DNA of 64,000 bases from Hyperoplus lanceolatus (taxonomy: Eukaryota > Chordata > Actinopteri > Uranoscopiformes > Ammodytidae): positions 9,021,452 to 9,085,451 of the forward strand of contig CM049409.1 of assembly GCA_026929865.2 (NCBI GenBank), in the 5' to 3' direction. Of the stretch, positions 4,527 through 63,700 are shown one piece after another; the first letter of the stretch is position 1; each line of letters starts with the position of its first letter. The notes under the pieces were generated by a model. That model was not told where the DNA came from. It saw nothing but the letters and a program-made list of their open reading frames with translations, and made no database searches. A program made the translations under genes and the position numbers.

Positions 4527-20687
<16,161 letters not shown>

Positions 20688-22058
20688 ACTGGGACAAACT
20701 ACCGTTCAACCCAGCAAACACCGGCGATTTCTCAACAACCAGACAACCTATCCATGGCTTTGACAACGCAACGAGAACCTATACATTGGCTTAACAACAA
20801 GTGAGACGCGTCAATGTTGTGAATAAAGTTAATTGATGCCTGTAGTTTGCTAGCTTAAAAGGCTAGCTTCACTAAAGAGAGACTCGTGGAGCTCTTAATT
20901 AAAGTGTAGTTTAACAAAAAGGTTATTGAATTATACACGAACGTCGCTAATATGAGAGGCTTGTGTTTGGTTGTAGGAATAAGTAAAGTTCAGCCCTTAA
21001 TTAACTAGTTAAATTAGTTTACAGCTCCTTCTGTTCCCATCTGCAGCCACACTGTTATTGACAGAGAGAGCAGAAAGCAAACAACTTCCGGAATCATGGT
21101 AAGACAAACTCCAAAAAACTTATTTATTTTTATATATTATTTTATAGTATTACAGAATAAATTAAAAAGTTGACTTTAAAACCCTTTTAATGTAGAATTT
21201 TGGCTCCTGTCAGAATTATTTCAGCCGCACCAACGTATTGGGAAAAAAGCGAACCGGAAGTACTTTCCTAGCCAACCTTTCTAGAAGAGTTGAGCACTTT
21301 CTAGTCTGTTCTGGTGTTTTATTCGGTTTTATTGCGAAATTTACTCAGTTATTACGTTAGATGTTCACTGTTTTTAACAAATGGCTTAGCAAAACGATTG
21401 GTAATGTGTTATTGTACGGATATTTTTCATAAAGAAGAAAAGTGTGTAAATATTTAGGAAAAATAATGATGTTTGCAACATTTAAAAACTGCATACCTAA
21501 TATAATTGAATAATATAATACGTATCATTATTTTATATAATAACATTCAGTTTATTTATAGAAGTAGCCTATCCATATGGATGTACATTGTTTATTTAGG
21601 CTACAAGTAGGCTAAAACATTTTGCAACATGATTTGACTTTAAAAAATAAAATAATCAAACGTTTAGATAGGCTACTCATTAGTTGTTGTTGTTTGTTCT
21701 TTTATGAAGGCCCTAAGCCTAAATACCAAAATCCTATCAAATATTAAGATTACATAGCTTCTTGCCATACGGAAGGCTAACCTTCATCTTTTAAATAAAT
21801 ATATTGGAATTGAAATATAGCGGTGAGTTCAGGTAGGCTATAAAGTAGGCTACCATTTAAACACGTCCAGTGACGTGCAGGTCAGAGGTAACATCCAGAA
21901 GGGGAATGTCAAGCAGCTGACTGACTAGGGAGGAGCTGTGAAACTGCACATTGTTATTTATTTATTCTACAGATGGAATCATTTTAGCAGTCATTTCATC
22001 CTCTACCAAGACAAGAATCAGTGGTCACCGTAGGAAACCCGTCGCGTGTGTATAGCCT
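20688..22058. promoter_or_regulatory. Divergent promoter region of edrf1 and the ATG16-like gene
   Basis: The two genes are head-to-head with 1.37 kb between start codons. Two ETS/GABP-type cores face opposite ways: ACTTCCGG at 21084-21091 and ACCGGAAGT at 21253-21261. The edrf1 5' UTR contains a short upstream frame on the minus strand (ATG at 20755, stop at 20732, 7 residues). I see no TATA box. Transcription starts are inferred, not seen. Confidence 0.4.
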
Positions 22059-23620
22059 ATGGTTAAAGTGTTTTATCCCACAATGACAAGCTGGAAAAAT
22101 CACGTGCGCGCTCGACTGGAACAGAGAGACCAATGTGAGAAACTTCCATACGTCGGCGTGTTCACAAGCTGTAAGAGTCACTTTTTGCTATGGTTAGCCT
22201 TTCCAATGATGTTCCTACAGTCCCAGCCTGATGACTTATCTGTTTGTTTGTTCATTTATTTCAGTGTCTCGGCTGGAAGAACGTTTTGAAATTCGCAAAC
22301 AAATTTTGGATGAAGTTCAGTCCAAGAGGTTAGGAATTCAGCATTTCATTTAACACACAAATACACGTCTCTGTTGACCTTGACTGTTCTCTAAATTGTA
22401 GCCTGTATTTTAATCTGTAATATGGCTTTTTTTTAACAGTTTAGATCGAGGTGGGGTTGTTGAAGTTGGGAAAAACACCAGACTCCTCCATCTCCAGCTG
22501 AGAGAGAGTGAACACCTGACAGAAAAGGTAATTCTAATTAGTAGGCAGCAATAATCTTTCAGCTCTCATTTGACTTTATAAGCATCAGCACTTTGCACAA
22601 ACATTTGTACCAAACAAACCTCAGGCGTTACAGCAGGGATATATTGATACACCCATCGATATTGATGGGTGTGTGTACTGTGTAGGCACTGGCAGTGACC
22701 TTTTGAATTTATGAGATCCTCCCGTAATCCGCCACTCATTCCATAACTCCTTCCCTTACTTTTTGTCTTCCCAGCTGTCTCAGACTGTCTCTGACCTGAC
22801 CACCGTCCTGCATCTGAAAGAGGCTGAACTGCAGTACTGGCAGTCACGGTAATTTCAATTTCAACTTCAACCATAGCTATCAGAGTAATACTCATACCTA
22901 CGCTGAATGTAATCCCATGAGACAAATACACATTGGGCTAATAGGCCTATTGGTTGTTGGGTCCCACTGTATAAAAATGATTTGTCATTTATTATTTAGC
23001 AGTTTCTTCAGGTTTCCATTGTATCATGTAAATTATGCAGTTTGTCCATGTTCCAGAATAAATTCACTATTTTCCTGATAATGGAAATTCACCACAATCA
23101 TCATGTTGTGATTGTTTACTGTCACAATTTATGATCAAATTGTATACCCTCTCATCTGTGACCGATTGCAACCTCTACAAGTGTGACCCAATACCGCCAA
23201 GAGGCTCTTACTCTGGCCAAAAGGAGTAACACCCAGAAGGCGACCCTTTCAGAATTTGAGTTCACCATAGAGTGCCAGTCCAAAGAGTTGGCAGTGCTGC
23301 GTGCAGAGCAGAAAGGACTGAAGGAAGATTTGGCACAGGCACAGGGAGAGAAAGAAGAACTCCTGCAACGATGGATGGGGGAGAAGAGGGAGGGGGCAGA
23401 GCTGCTGAATAAGTACAACGACACACAGGAAATGTAAGAGTATGCAAATGTGTGGTCTCTCTGCATGACTTCCAGGATATAAATGTACAAAATGTAAATG
23501 ACAGTGTCTTTTGAAGTTACTGTTGTTGTTTTCTTTACCAGGTTGCAACGTTTGGCCAAACAGCTGAAGAAGCTACACCAAAGGGAAATGGGAAAAGAGC
23601 GTGCCCCCATTCCATACTGA
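22059..23620 (+). CDS. Short ATG16-like protein: ATG5-binding helix plus coiled coil, no WD40 domain
   Basis: The exons are 22059-22170, 22265-22328, 22440-22527, 22775-22848, 23182-23433 and 23542-23620, all in phase and AG/GT-bounded. The product is 222 aa, or 214 aa if ATG 22083 is used; that codon has A at -3 and is the better context. Residues from MTS: W4, V8, L12 and R15 in SWKNHVRARLEQRDQ align with W13, I17, L21 and R24 of the human ATG16L1 N-terminal helix that binds ATG5. A long coiled coil follows from about residue 80. It ends in EELLQRWMGEKREGAELLN, which matches ATG16L1 QELVTRWMAEKAQEANRLN. The frame stops soon after, at APIPY, and no WD40 exon lies before tex36 at 24.9 kb. Architecture is that of yeast Atg16. 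In ATG16L1 this part scaffolds the ATG12-ATG5 E3-like complex for ATG8/LC3 lipidation. Family membership is strong; function is inferred. It may be annotated elsewhere as atg16l1-like. Confidence 0.85.
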
Positions 23621-24362: not shown

Positions 24363-24849
24363 AAAACACTATCCCAGATGAATATGTTGTGTTTTATAGA
24401 AGTGTGTTGTTGTTTTTCTATTTCGATTGAAACAGAAATAAAGTTACTTATATGCTCACTTGTTGTCACCTTGTCATCTATGAGAGAACCCTTTCCTGAT
24501 TTTTAAAAAAACACACCTTTTTGTAAAACATCTGACCACACTAGCAGAGTATAATAGCCTAATTTAATGGCATTTTAGCTCCACATTTTTCAAAAAAAAA
24601 AGGAATTTCTCCAATCCAAATAACAGAGAAATCTATTATTGTGCATTTATTTGTTTAAATATTCAACAAAATGTGTTCAATTGCTTCTTTTGTTTGATTA
24701 ATATAATAAGTCAAGGAAGTCTTCTTTTAGTCCGAATTCATGTTCCACGTCTCCATGGCAATTTGAGATCACATTTCAGTTCTGTTTGCATGTTTCCATA
24801 GTCACCAGTGTTTGCATTAGTTAAGTTGGACAGTGTGTGTGAGCGAGCG

Positions 24850-24897: not shown

Positions 24898-26202
24898 ATG
24901 TTGAAAGGTGGAAAGCGCTATTATTCGAAGAGCATTGATGGCAAATGGGTAAGAAAATCATCATTATCAAATCATGACATCCTAAAACCCTGTCCATGTA
25001 ATAAGCTTTTCTTTTTGAATTTTCCTCTCAGTTTGCTCATCCAGTTCTTCCAGAAAATGAGACGAGGAGCCGTGAGACTTGTACAAGCACTGGGATCATG
25101 CTGACCCAGGTTAAAGCCTCACTGCCTCAGGCTTTCAACTTGGAGCGCTATCCTAAATGCAGAACTCACCAGGTGTGTATTGACAGTGTATCATTTTCTA
25201 AGTTTTCACAGTATAGTCGTGGCCTGCAGGCTTGGAAAGATTGTATTGCACTTCCTATCGAAGCACTAATGCAAATAAAGATGTCATCCTATTCCTCTGT
25301 ATCCAGTTGTATTAATTAAGACTGCATACTGTCCTCCCAATATGAGTTTCTTTGCAGGAATCCAGAGAGTATCCATTCTCGAAGCATGACAACAAGCATT
25401 TCCTAAAAGAAAACGTCTCTGTCTTCACTTATGTGAGTACCAAGGGAAATTCAAGGCATTGTGAAATGTTAAAGGTGATTCTGGAGAACGTTTGTTGTCA
25501 AAATTACTTTTTGTCAAAATCAATGAAGATCTCCTCATGATCCCCAACCTGTCTGTACTGTGCGCGCTGAATCAAATCAGTTGTAAATACCCAGCCTAGA
25601 CCCTATAAACTGGTATGTAAACAAAGGTTGTGTAAGCAAAGGGGCCAACCGTAGCTAGTGACATGCCTATTTAAAGAGCCTAGGCTGTGTTTTAACCATA
25701 GATAGTATATAAAACACCATATCCTTTTTGTCAGCTCGCACACAGGAAGTGGATTGTTAGGACATATTCACTTATTTGATGACAAAAGGTGATTTTGATA
25801 AGAAACATTCTCCAGAATATCTTACTTTACCTCTTAAGATCCATCACCACATTACTACCCATGTTGATATCCTTTTAGGGTGTAGGACGCAGGAAGTGCC
25901 CTGATGATCACAGACAGCACAACTCCCACTTCTGCCTGTGCCGTGATGCAGTTGATGGGTGCACTGTGGAGGCTGCGGGTAACAACACGGTCTACCACAC
26001 TGACTTCATGGAGAAGCCAGCTGTTGATGTTCCAATCAGTAGCTGCAGACGGTTCACCCGCGACCACCGGCAGAAGTCTGCAGGGGCGGCTCTGGCCCAG
26101 GCAGGCGAGAGATACATGTGGTTCGGACGGCACGACGCCCGTGACCTCCCGGAGACCCTGGACGTGCTGGGGGCTACCCGCTCTGCCAGTTCCAAGCACT
26201 AG
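24898..26202 (+). CDS. tex36: Testis-expressed protein 36, complete, four exons
   Basis: The exons are 24898-24948, 25032-25172, 25358-25432 and 25879-26202, all phase 0, giving 196 aa (human TEX36 is about 186). Matching blocks are SIDGKWFAHPVL (human DGRWFPHIGL), REYPFSKHDNKHFLKE (human NQFPFSVHDNRHSLEN) and GVGRRKCPDDHRQHNSHF (human GLGRKKISPDKRQHVSRNF). No signal peptide or membrane segment is seen. The N-terminus is basic, and the last exon is Cys- and Arg-rich. TEX36 is testis-enriched in mammals; its molecular role is not established, so none is given. Start is the first ATG after a GT tract, and the neighbour edrf1 supports the identity. The (TATC)n array begins about 100 bases past the stop. 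Confidence 0.92.
25472..25833. mobile_element. MITE family A, copy 2
   Basis: Terminal sequence AAGGTGATTCTGGAGAACG, flanked by TTA at 25469-25471 and 25834-25836. The core CCTGTCTGTACTGTG and GCCTAGGCTGTGT is shared with copies at 4745 and 37746. It occupies most of tex36 intron 3. Confidence 0.75.
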
Positions 26203-29548: not shown

Positions 29549-32518
29549 CGTGTGTTTGTTTGTGTTGCATACTATGTGTGCTCCAATGGAGTTATTAGCC
29601 ACTGTCCGGTTCAGGCCTTCTGCCCCTGTTGAAGCTGTAGTGTCCTCCGTGCCCGGGCATAGCGCTGCAGAAGCATTGCTGCAAAATATCGGACATTTCC
29701 TTGCTCTAAATCACATTTCTCCCTGTATTTTTTCGCAACCTCCGACTCAGTTTGAATGCTAATTTGTGTGTAGGTGGGGAGTATAATAACATTAGCCTGT
29801 AAACAAAGACATTCAAGCAGGAGTATGTTCAAGTACCCGACCCCGGAGAGAGAACAATGAAATAGTTTGGATGGATGAATTCCTCATGCATAGTTTATAC
29901 GATGGAAATTATATTTCAAGGCTGTGTCTGTTTGTCAGTGAAGCTGTGATTAAAGAGAAATCTGATTAATGAGAATAAAGAAAGAGTTTGATTAGGTTGA
30001 TTCATGTTTTATGCTCTTAGCATTTGAAGCCCCGATTCTGCTTAAAAAAAATGCCATTTAGCTAACATAATTAGCTCAAAATCATCCTTCTTACCTTTAA
30101 CAAAGGTGGAGTATGGCATTGCCACATTACATGTACAAAATTACCAAGTATTTCATCACTAGGCCTAGTTAGTTGCATCTTCGTCTGCTATTTCAGGTCA
30201 GTCAGTATCATACATTTTTTGATCTCATGAGATAAAAAATGCCTAAGCATCTATTCCAATTTATAAATCAGGAGCCAGACCAAAAAACAAAATCCGCTAC
30301 TTTAAGCCCTTTGTCATACTTGACTGAATGGCGGTTGTTCATTTTCGTGGGAACCTGATTGAACAAGTGAAGTGTTTTGCATTTGACATGATCCTCTAAT
30401 TGGAATAGAGAGGTGCAACTTGAAGATCAACAACATTTCAGACAATTCAGCGTATGTTTCTGTTCAGATGGGACTGTATAACTTCCTGCTTTCAGCTCCA
30501 TAACGCACCATATACAGTACAGTTTATGTCACACATACACATTCACAGTTTTATCTGTCCTGCTATTAGATGAAGAAGCAACATCCAGGGGCCTCACAAC
30601 AAGTCTAATGAACCGTTTTCACACTTGTTCTCCGGTCAGAAGGGGTAAATCTGCCTCATCTGCATTCTATTTGAGGCGTAAATATAAGTCAATGGATGCC
30701 TTTTACAGGCTGCCATGAATGTGTCAGAGGCCTTACAGTGGTGGAATATAATTGGATGTGAGTGTGGTCTGAGTGGTGCTGTGTTTTTGTTGTTGTTTTT
30801 TTTTTTCATCTCAAAAAGCAATGTTAAAAGATGTGCCGCTGCTCACTGAATAGAGGAGGTACATTCTGTTTCAATGACACACTCTTGATAATCTGACATT
30901 ATCATCAAATGTTAATTACTCTCCCACGAGCTGCTCATTACAATATCCCATATGTAGCGAGTGTCATAAGTTGTTAAATTTCCAATTCAACATGACCTCC
31001 ATTTTTAAGCTGCTGGTAGCGATGTTCTAGTTAAATTAGCGACACTTCATCTCCTCAGTGAAAGGAGCAAAGATGTGAAATTATGGATCTAAAAATCAGA
31101 AGCAAGGTCCTTACAGAAGTAGCTGGGTCATCCGTAGTGCAATAAACAAGGTTAGTTTTGAATGATAACAGGTTAGTTGATATAATGAAATATGGGTGAC
31201 TGGCTGGACTGAGTGAAAACACATTAAATTGTTTATTTTGATATTAGAGACTGCAAAGCAAAACACCCAAGTGTTATTGTAGTATATACGCATGCAGGCC
31301 CCAGTGAAAGGAAAGGCTGCGCAATAAGGTGATTTAAACACGAGAGACTGATTCAAGGTTGCAGTGAAACATTCATTCAAATGAGGTAAAGAGTGGAGCA
31401 GCATAAGAATAACCCTTCTTTAAAGATTAACATAACCCTGGGAGATGTTATTGTATCCCCACAACCGGGTCCTGACTCCAGCAGGTGCAGAACAGCTCTC
31501 TCTCTCCCTCTCTCTGTGAGTTACTGCATTAAGTCCCTCAAATTTAGTGGCACAATCATGAGCCTCCCGTTCACTCTCCGGAGTAGAAGAATCACTTTGC
31601 ATTTTAAAAAGGTCAAACACTCAGATCTCTGCCAGGAGGAATTGAGGGAAGAAATAATGTCTCCCTGCAGAAATATGCAGTCGCACACTACTGATCCTCT
31701 CAAATACCCACTGTACAGTGAACAGATTAGAGGTGTGTGTGTGTGTGTGTGTTGACTCTCATTCTCCAGGAACAAGTGTATATAAACAAAAGCTAATTAT
31801 AATATCAGAAAAAACGTGGTGAAGATTTTAATTATTTTCAAGACTGTATTGATTTAGAACAGTATGCTACAATGCTGGTGGCTGAAGAACAATACAACAA
31901 AAAAAGTGAAAGGCACTGAAAGTCATGCAGCCTTATCGCTATTTAAAATGTGCAAAAACAAATAAAGTGCAGTAAGGTGACTTACAAAGTGACCCGTGGT
32001 AAACAAACCAGGGCATAAGCTCATAATTAGCCAACACAACCTGTTTTAGGATTAAATCCTTATTAATAAAGCAGATTTGGAAATAACTATAGAGGGGTAT
32101 TCTGCCACACAAATAAATGTAGGATAAATACAGTATAGTATGCTACTAAATCATACGTGTCATTTTACGTGATTAAATGATATACCACATCATCGACTTG
32201 GTTATTGATGATTCGATTTTGATGTATTGGTTTGATGGGAGTTTTAAGTGTCTTTGTGTTTATTTTTTATTCATTTCAGAAAAAGTGATGCTTTTTCCAT
32301 TTTAACTTGCAGCAGTGATTTGAACTGTTCCCCTGGTCTCTCTTCCTCCTCCAGTCATCCGTCCCCTCTGCTGCCATTGCAAAAACACACGCTTCAGTTG
32401 GGGTCCCCTGTTGGCTGCTGCTGGTCTTTGGAGTATAGTTGGGTTAGTGCCCGGTAGTTACATTGTGCTGAGGACAAAATGACCACAGGGAAAGATGCAC
32501 TCAGGACAGAGCCAAGAG

Positions 32519-60795: not shown

Positions 60796-63700
60796 TATTT
60801 ATTTATTTATTTGTTTATTGAACAGGGACAATGTACAGCACAAAAGCAGTACCAGATTTAGCTATAAGCTAATTTTCATCTGCAGTCCCTGGGCAGGAAA
60901 CAGAGTATTACATCTCTGTTAAGATGGGAAACCTCACACTGAAGTATAAAAACAATAACACACAATTTCACAACAGTAAAACACAATACGAACAATAAAA
61001 TCACAACATTTAGGACACCACAACAACAACAACATCACAACAGTAAGACACCAAGATAACAGGACATCACAACATTAAGAAAACAATCTTTGCATGATGG
61101 GTACATGCTTGGGTTGATTTCAGCCATGACTTCATCTTACATTTAAAACCAGCAAAGGTGTTTCACTCTCTTATCTCGCTTGGTACTAAGTTCCAAGACT
61201 TGGTGGCTCTAACTGAAAATATAGACATGCCAAACTCAGTGGATCTGTGCTGTACTACACAGTCCCCTCTATTAGACGTTCTAGTTCTCCTTCCATTGTC
61301 TGAGCGCAGTGACACAAACTCATTTAATGGAGGAGCGGCCAAATCATTCATTATTTTATAAACTAAACATACATCCGCAAGAAACACAAAACTATCAAAC
61401 GTCATGAGATTATGTCTTTGAATTATGTTACAGTGGTGATATCGTAATGGCTTTTTGTCCAGTACCTTGAGTGTTTGTTTGTAAAGTGTTTGCAGTGGAG
61501 CAAGTGTTGTTTTTCCAGTTTGTGACCAGCTTGTAATACAGTATGAGATGTGTGAAAAGATCATGGAGTGCATGTAAAGTTTTGCTGCATCTAGAGGGAG
61601 CTGGTTCCTGATGTACCTAAAATTCCTTAAATTGAATTTGACTCTATTACACACCTGCTTCACATGTTTCTTAAATAAGAGCTGTGAGTCCACATTTATT
61701 CCTAAATATTTAAAATGTGAAACAGTCTGGATCCTTTCTCCATTAACAATGATATCAGGCTGATTTCCATTTTTCCTATTATAAAAGTACATGCATGCTG
61801 TTTAACTGATGTTGAGTGTCAGGCAGGACTTAGAGAGCCAATCAGAAATTTTGGCCATTGCTTCTGTTAATTTGGCGGCCACCTCACATCTGTTCTTTCC
61901 ATGTGCGAGGATGACCGTGTCATCTGCATACATTTGTACGTCCACTTCTGGACATACAAGTGGCAGATCATTTACATATAAGCTAAACAACAAAGGTCCT
62001 AAAATTGAGCTCTGCGGGACACCAACAGAGCAGCCAATGAAAGATGAAGTCCTATCCCCAACTCTGGTGCCTTGTTTTTTTCCAGTGAGATAGGACTCCA
62101 TCCATTTCATTGTTTCCACAGACAAATTAAAATTGGACACTTTTGAGAGCAGAACGCTATGATTAACAGTATCAAATGCTTTGCTCAGATCCAAAAATAC
62201 CGCACCTACAGCACTCCCACTGTCAATATTTGTTTTGATTTTTTCAATGAGATAGCAGGTTGCCATCTCAGTTGAATGATTTTTCCTGAATCCGAATTGC
62301 ATGGGATGAAGTGAGTCTTGTCCTGGGTTTAAAAAGGCAGTTAGTTGTTCAGCTACCAGTTTTTCAGCGATCTTTGATACAACAGGCAAGATACTGATAG
62401 GTCTATAATTTTTCACTTCAGTTGGTTCCCCTGTTTTAAAAATTGGAACTACAACTGCAGACTTCCATGCATTTGGGAAGGTTGACTGTTTAAATTACAT
62501 ATTAACCAAATGTGCAATTGGGGTGCTGAAGGATTGATTATTGCTTTTAATAAAAGTTGAGTCCCACTCAAACACATCTTTTGCCTTAGAGGACTTTAAA
62601 GTGCTTAGGATTTTTAAAATCTTTGCTTGAGGAACTTCAGTTATGTTAAAAACCGGTTTGGTGTGATTCGGCACTGAGATTTGTTTAAATCTTGCACCAA
62701 AGCTGTGTGACAAATTCTGTACTGAGTCAATAAAATATTTGTTAAATGTGAGGGCAATTTCATTAAAGTCATTTGTAATAATTCCCTGTACTTTCAGTTC
62801 ACGTCCGTGTCCTTGATTTTGCTTACTGTCAGTCTTTGTTAATTTATTAATATTCGTCCATATTAATTTGCTATTTCCTTTCCCTTCTTTAATAATAGTC
62901 ATGAAGAAATTGGCTTTTGCCTTTCTTAATTCATTAACCACTTTGTTACGGAGATTTTTAAAAACTTGTCCATCATTAATTGATTTGGACTTAAGTGCTA
63001 TCTTTAAAGCAAAATCACGCTTTTTCATTAAATCCCACAGTTTCTAATTAAACCAAGGTAAGTTACTCTTAGCACGTCTGTTTTTAAATGGTTTGTTGTA
63101 TTTTTCCTTAATTTTATCTACTGTGCCTACAAAGGATTCACAAGAGGCCTCTAGATCATCTGTTTGTAGAACATCAGTCCACTCAATTTGACCTAGTTCT
63201 TCCTTAAATGTATTCATGTCTTCTTTCCTTATTCCATGGGAGTGTTTATTTGTGTCTTGGCGATAAGTAAATCGTTTGTTAATTTTCTTGAAATAAGAGT
63301 CATATTGTGATCTGACAAACCAGTAAGAAGATTAAAAGATTTGGTGATTCTCTCAGACGTATTACTAAAAATGAGATCAATTTGTGTTTTTGAGGAGTTT
63401 GTGATTCTAGTCGGTCCATCTATTAATTGAGTCATTTCAAATTGATTTGTAAGTGCTTTAAGTTTCTTTCTTATGTTTTTTTCTGCCCAGTTTAAATTAA
63501 AATCACCTAGAACTATACATTCTTTTTTAGTATCTAATTCTTTAAGCTGGTTTTTGAAATGTTCAAAAAAGGTAATGTCAGATGAGGGAGGTCTATATAC
63601 ACCAATCACATTAAATGTCATTTGCTGAGACAAGGTGATAGTTACGGCAATACATTCCATGTCATTTGCGCATGCCAGGTCAATCTGTTTACATTTAATG

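Follow-up and report, generated by a model that had tools for sequence, protein, structure and literature searches.

A divergent ATG16-family gene with no WD40 domain found, between EDRF1 and TEX36 in Hyperoplus lanceolatus

A short gene situated between EDRF1 and TEX36 in Hyperoplus lanceolatus very probably encodes a member of the ATG16 family and, judged by its sequence, the product is a divergent ATG16-domain protein, colinear with the N-terminal half of ATG16L1. The original prediction had described an ATG16-family member without a WD40 domain, and this part stands, in that Pfam, PDB and alignment searches point to ATG16 and no WD40 domain was found. Of the two functions that had been put forward, competition with ATG16L1 for ATG5 fits the protein better, while restriction to canonical autophagy fits it less well; competition is preferred since the ATG5 helix is kept, the acidic residues of the FIP200 site are absent and, in the best-scoring register, K and R occupy the positions of the WIPI2 contacts E226 and E230. 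The complete mechanism, in which an ATG16 protein devoid of WD40 would compete with ATG16L1 for ATG5 and in this way tune ATG8 lipidation, is drawn from the sequence and from analogy, and we regard it as evenly poised between right and wrong. A short relative that grips ATG5 and has no propeller may act in nature as a competitor of ATG16L1 or may modulate it. The material was one genome, represented by a 64 kb stretch of contig CM049409.1 that was analysed whole and is termed the window; all genomic positions refer to it.

The gene and its surroundings

The six in-phase exons and the product of 214–222 aa that had been proposed were recovered on the plus strand at 22059-23620, with GT donors, AG acceptors and a single open frame. 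Translation from the ATG at 22059 gives 222 aa, and 214 aa if the second ATG, at 22083, is used. The features are as follows.

22059-22170, plus strand: exon 1, aa 1-37; start ATG and predicted ATG5-binding helix with W12, K13, H15, V16, L20, R23 and D24
22265-22328, plus strand: exon 2, aa 38-58; assigned by splice sites and frame
22440-22527, plus strand: exon 3, aa 59-88; holds gaps of 10 and 6 residues relative to ATG16L1
22775-22848, plus strand: exon 4, aa 89-112; coiled coil
23182-23433, plus strand: exon 5, aa 113-196; coiled coil and RAB33B-type segment RWMxEKxxxAxxLNxxN (aa 176-192)
23542-23620, plus strand: exon 6, aa 197-222 and stop TGA (23618-23620); basic tail where ATG16L1 has its WIPI2-binding helix
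24345 and 24355 (about 0.73 kb past the stop), and a third at 24437, plus strand: AATAAA motifs, candidate polyadenylation signals

The introns measure 94, 111, 247, 333 and 108 bases. The GC content is 0.493 in the exons versus 0.366 in the introns, and 0.596, 0.336 and 0.547 at the three codon positions. When exon 5 is read unspliced, its frame ends immediately (ATG TAA; ORF 23162-23437).

Independently of the proposed exons, human ATG16L1 was aligned with the genomic DNA of both strands by an intron-aware method (intron penalty 14). The peak, 100.1 at 23422 on the plus strand, falls within the ATG16-like locus. When the locus is masked, 47.0 is left on the same strand; the minus strand reaches 59.9, the reversed query no more than 59.9, and 40 shuffled queries on the plus strand a maximum of 72.8 (mean 53.9). 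Four later plus-strand ends (90.9, 86.6, 71.9 and 66.2) are read as the same chain continued, because masking of the locus leaves so little on that strand. The choice of the penalty matters, since with cheaper introns the contrast narrows (122.9 versus 79.9 at penalty 10; 134.9 versus 121.9 at 8) and then reverses (148.5 versus 175.5 at 6). Masking of single exons cost about 10 score units for each of exons 1, 2 and 3, 23 for exon 4, 42 for exon 5 and none for exon 6, so that the last exon rests on its splice signals, on the stop codon in frame and on its position within the chain.

The location between edrf1 and tex36 is upheld by Pfam matches to both neighbours, EDRF1 on the minus strand and TEX36 on the plus strand. 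Between about 7.3 and 20.3 kb, minus-strand ORFs match EDRF1 N-terminal and TPR models (PF23788, E 1.4e-25 and 4.2e-31; PF23723, E 2.6e-31 and 7.4e-12), and TEX36 (HDNR, PF15115, E 1.1e-26 with hand-spliced exons) begins at 24898. Between the ATG16-like start and the opposite-strand EDRF1, 0.8-1 kb upstream of the former, two motifs which we take to be of ETS type, ACTTCCGG and CCGGAAGT, were noticed by eye at 21084-21091 and 21254-21261. A promoter region common to both genes is possible. Also by eye, Tc1/mariner-type transposase-like fragments lie at 8807-10841, inside the EDRF1 region, and consecutive ORFs resembling retrotransposon reverse transcriptase at 61163-63331 on the minus strand. 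A 90-aa minus-strand ORF with an IQ-like stretch (29611-29883) gave no Pfam match at E 0.01, and 45 of its residues gave no match in the PDB. Beside EDRF1, an OB-fold exon at 2061-2357 on the plus strand (PF07717, E 5.3e-12) probably belongs to DHX32, judging from the domain and the gene order, which would fit an order kept with mammals; in human, DHX32 belongs to a block given as Edrf1-Uros-Mmp21-Bccip-Dhx32 (PMC5774710). The part of that paper's table considered here names no ATG16 gene among those tabulated near Tex36 and Edrf1 (PMC5774710).

Relationship to ATG16 proteins

In Pfam, ATG16 (PF08614) was the top family for the whole protein with E 5.8e-7, at 30.3 bits and thus 3.4 below the curated cut-off of 33.7, and the second-best family had E 0.0023. 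The C-terminal 134 aa alone reached 33.7 bits, which equals the cut-off (E 5.4e-8); the N-terminal 80 aa alone and the reversed protein sequence gave no Pfam ATG16 match, and a human ATG16L1 segment, used as positive control, scored 157.8 bits. A best match to an unrelated coiled-coil family, which the original prediction had named as evidence that would count against it, was not seen, the best Pfam family being ATG16. The PDB search returned five sequences at E <= 1, four of which are ATG16 proteins, i.e., ATG16L1 (E 8.5e-5, 0.0039 and 0.031) and yeast Atg16 (E 0.15), the fifth being acetyl-CoA carboxylase (E 0.89); by these values the candidate is nearer to animal ATG16L1 than to the yeast chain. 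When a profile of the candidate together with ATG16L1 was searched against the PDB, 12 of the 23 sequences found were ATG16 chains or peptides, which is no independent evidence, since the profile itself includes ATG16L1. A search for relatives in viral contigs gave six pattern matches, none of which was confirmed.

The Smith-Waterman score with human ATG16L1 is 169, compared with a maximum of 87 in 2000 plain shuffles and of 93 in 2000 shuffles that preserve the hydrophobic/polar class. The alignment covers residues 13-224 of human ATG16L1 with 49 identities over 194 positions (25%), and each of five overlapping sub-segments (aa 9-60, 59-125, 114-222, 126-222 and 151-222) scored above all 1000 class shuffles, with narrow margins in the first two (64 versus 62 and 57 versus 56). 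The long coiled coil that had been claimed is colinear with that of ATG16L1 and aligned over 105 residues, the longest gap-free block (candidate 88-192 to human ATG16L1 105-209). Its periodicity is moderate, as 42 of 2000 shuffles matched its 3.5-residue hydrophobic moment, and slightly higher values than at 3.5 residues are seen for periods near 4.85. Long coiled coils draw chance matches, and weak matches to other families occur here as well, the next Pfam family among them; yet that the gene codes for a coiled-coil protein unrelated to ATG16, matched by composition, is hardly credible in view of the shuffled and reversed controls, the colinearity and the signal that N- and C-terminal pieces each give on their own, by narrow margins in two of them. 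On the shuffle, reversal and intron-aware scan controls, a chance coiled-coil match was rejected.

The place of the protein within the family is less sharply drawn by the same measures. Identity is 25.3% of 194 aligned residues with ATG16L1 versus 25.1% of 207 with the human ATG16L2 sequence used for comparison, and the alignment scores are 169 and 113, respectively; ATG16L1 and this ATG16L2 sequence share 33.2% identity with a score of 297. Both an origin before the split of ATG16L1 and ATG16L2 and fast evolution would fit these identities and scores.

Binding sites kept and altered

At the N-terminus, the claimed pattern W-x3-V-x3-L-x2-RD is present. The positions of the ATG5 helix, as well as the general motif W-x3-I/V-x3-L-x2-RD, are assumed ones, taken in part from the original prediction; in human numbering, W13, K14, H16, L21, R24 and D25 are identical, I17 is replaced by V and Q20 by R. 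A proline and a glycine (P30 and G33) lie within the extension of this helix, and ATG16L1 positions 32, 35 and 36, to which we ascribe a role at the membrane, are Y, V and F here, still hydrophobic. The choice of one helix position is backed by I18W, described as an ATG5-binding mutant of ATG16L2 (PMC6796855).

The RWM-x-EK segment, likened beforehand to that of ATG16L1, was found within aa 176-192. All five residues of human ATG16L1 named for RAB33B binding in the papers considered, R193, K198, A202, N206 and N209, are identical in the candidate, and identity over ATG16L1 191-210 is 9 of 20, versus 49 of 194 overall. The human ATG16L2 sequence used for comparison carries the same five residues; at W194, M195, E197 and L205, positions picked post hoc, the candidate agrees with ATG16L1, and that ATG16L2 sequence has L, V, R and R. 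The agreement of this segment with ATG16L1 is suggestive at the level of sequence. In ATG16L1, RAB33B binding is reported to be abolished by K198A, A202W and N206K (PMC7395093), the N206A/N209A exchange lowers the affinity 254-fold, and R193 is described as an interaction residue (PMC8496732). ATG16L2 was reported either not to bind RAB33B (PMC7395093) or to bind it more weakly (PMC9117662). Since a protein with the same five residues is reported to bind more weakly or not at all, these residues are insufficient for binding, and they were demoted as proof of it.

The tail was compared with the WIPI2-binding helix of ATG16L1, in which L220, L224, E226 and E230 lie at the interface in a crystal structure (PMC8455133), E226R or E230R abolishes and E208R or D212R lowers WIPI2b binding (PMC4104028). 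The ungapped register with the highest score (14) retains L220 and L224 but puts K at E226 and R at E230, the kind of charge change that costs ATG16L1 its WIPI2b binding; an alternative register, five residues further on (score 8), has glutamates at both E226 and E230 and replaces the leucines by K and Q. The C-terminal E-x3-E was for this reason demoted as a kept WIPI2 site, as the register with both leucines has the higher score and carries K and R; the lower-scoring one would allow a canonical function. Position 208 is Y instead of E, and D212 is kept as D. At the second WIPI2 site of ATG16L1, D164/E165 (PMC10688262), the candidate carries K and E, and A and D replace I171 and K179, to which a part in membrane targeting is ascribed (PMC8496732). 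ATG16L2 is reported to lack the acidic residues of the WIPI2 region and not to bind WIPI2b (PMC4104028). In the FIP200 segment (about 230-242), read by extending the best tail register by hand, A and I stand at D237 and D239, the pair changed in the FIP200-binding mutant of ATG16L1 (PMC4104028), and the C-terminus lies 11 residues beyond the position of E230. Exon 6 starts at the equivalent of human ATG16L1 residue 214 (by the offset of the gap-free block) or 216 (by the alignment); if the ends of the deletion 69-213 cited in PMC4104028 are exon edges, it would agree with exon boundaries being conserved. In mouse ATG16L1, exon 6 encodes E230 (PMC6526875), and the tail of the candidate is likewise encoded by exon 6.

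ATG16L1 and ATG16L2 both carry WD40 domains in mouse and human (PMC6356889; PMC13020874). The claim that the gene stops with no WD40 exon ahead of the next gene agrees with the frame, which ends at 23618, and with no WD40 being found before TEX36 within the sensitivity of the searches. Over the 64 kb, the WD40 domain of ATG16L1 and the whole of ATG16L2, used as tblastn queries, gave no WD40 match better than E 1.2, and matches were scattered on both strands. The sensitivity of tblastn is low, given that with ATG16L1 it returned the candidate's own exons only at E 0.51 and 1.3, beside a false antisense match at 0.79; a strongly diverged WD40 could escape it, as the method is weak at such divergence. 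Among 10 of the 14 plus-strand ORFs of at least 25 aa contained entirely in the interval from the stop to TEX36, Pfam found no WD40, and one of the ten has a weak DUF4795 match (E 0.028). Hidden WD40 exons inside the window were rejected on the tblastn and ORF scans, a distant or strongly diverged exon aside.

Possible functions and significance

If the gene acts by competition for ATG5, an ATG16-family protein reduced to an ATG5-binding helix and a coiled coil would insert its helix into the groove in which ATG5, alone or joined to ATG12, takes up ATG16L1, and would dimerise through the coiled coil, possibly also with ATG16L1 or ATG16L2. ATG5 binding and dimerisation are the predicted part with the best sequence support. 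The complex would not be placed on phagophores or on stressed single membranes in the usual way, because acidic WIPI2 contacts are missing from the best register and no clear FIP200 or WD40 targeting is seen. The most likely net effect would be competition with ATG16L1 for ATG5 and tuned ATG8 lipidation, as reported for ATG16L2, which binds ATG5 (PMC4104028) and, as a dominant negative, takes the place of ATG16L1 (PMC6796855). ATG16L2 is the closest functional precedent: the sequence used for comparison has K and R at the same two WIPI2 positions, and both proteins are likely competitors for ATG5. The analogy is functional and not one of descent, as the alignment score is higher with ATG16L1; moreover, the candidate differs from ATG16L2 in having no WD40 found and in the W, M, E and L of the RAB33B segment. 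A further comparison is offered by TECPR1, whose ATG5-interacting region binds ATG5 similarly to ATG16L1 and competes with it (PMC12005411), although TECPR1 is a tectonin beta-propeller protein and no TECPR1 chain was among the five PDB matches.

The candidate might instead be a naturally WD40-less ATG16 whose work as an E3 scaffold is confined to canonical autophagy, in the manner of yeast Atg16 or of the Atg16l1-E230 mouse, which we consider possible though on the unlikely side. In that engineered mouse, stop codons were placed in exon 6 right after E230, and canonical autophagy is retained while LC3-associated phagocytosis is lost (PMC6526875); the candidate, a separate natural gene of similar overall architecture, ends close to this truncation point, one tail register keeps both glutamates together with D212, and the positions with an assumed membrane role remain hydrophobic. 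Against this stand the better register, with K and R at two WIPI2 contacts, the K, E at the second WIPI2 pair and the A and D at I171 and K179. The E230 mouse, unlike the candidate in its best register, keeps E226 and E230, and a mouse allele without E230 is autophagy-defective (PMC6526875). Yeast Atg16, of 150 aa (PMC6356889), likewise combines a short ATG5-binding helix with a coiled coil and has no WD40. It is quite improbable that the protein is a scaffold directed by RAB33, which would bring ATG12-ATG5 to Golgi-derived or RAB33-marked membranes without WIPI2 and open a distinct route of ATG8 lipidation. The five identical RAB33B residues, the raised identity over 191-210 and the four post hoc positions that set the candidate apart from the comparison ATG16L2 sequence speak for such a role, but ATG16L2 shares the five and is reported to bind more weakly or not at all, and the conservation of the segment may reflect coiled-coil structure. 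More improbable still is that an ATG16 duplicate survives here as a relic, silent or in decay; the identity to ATG16L1 of no more than 25%, a whole-protein score under the Pfam cut-off and the single genome would be in keeping with it, whereas the frame is intact across six exons, the splice sites are usable despite the divergence, and the GC content of exons versus introns and by codon position speaks against decay.

In the literature, the animal ATG16 family was hitherto described in vertebrates as consisting of two genes. A survey that traced ATG duplications through 30 chordates derives ATG16L1 and ATG16L2 from one chordate ATG16 and, in the parts considered, describes only these two in vertebrates (PMC13020874; 2026). 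As the survey filtered by conserved domains and dropped some short sequences, it could miss a gene of such type (PMC13020874). Among the literature matches listed, titles and the beginnings of abstracts revealed neither a third vertebrate ATG16 nor an ATG16 gene at EDRF1-TEX36, in line with the earlier statement that no mammalian counterpart is known at this locus, and the name ATG16L3 gave no literature match; genome databases may already list the gene under a generic name.

Set beside ATG16L1, the candidate shares the ATG5 helix, the coiled coil and the RWMxEK/RAB33B segment, and differs in that no WD40 was found, the FIP200-site acids are gone, the WIPI2 acidic pair is probably absent and identity is 25% over 194 residues. 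From this pattern, a third vertebrate ATG16 may be imagined, which mammals have lost or in which it has gone unrecognised, with the interfaces for ATG5 and RAB33 retained and WIPI2, FIP200 and WD40 targeting dropped, a reading which we hold to be unlikely. If it were true, some fish would carry a built-in switch that draws ATG12-ATG5 off phagophores and single membranes, and RAB33 would be used to place or withhold ATG8 lipidation elsewhere. A natural gene limited to ATG5 binding and a coiled coil would be the evolutionary counterpart of the engineered E230 mouse and would serve as a test of what the targeting sites of ATG16L1 contribute; it would also confound fish studies which assume that Atg16l1 and Atg16l2 are the sole ATG5 partners of such type.
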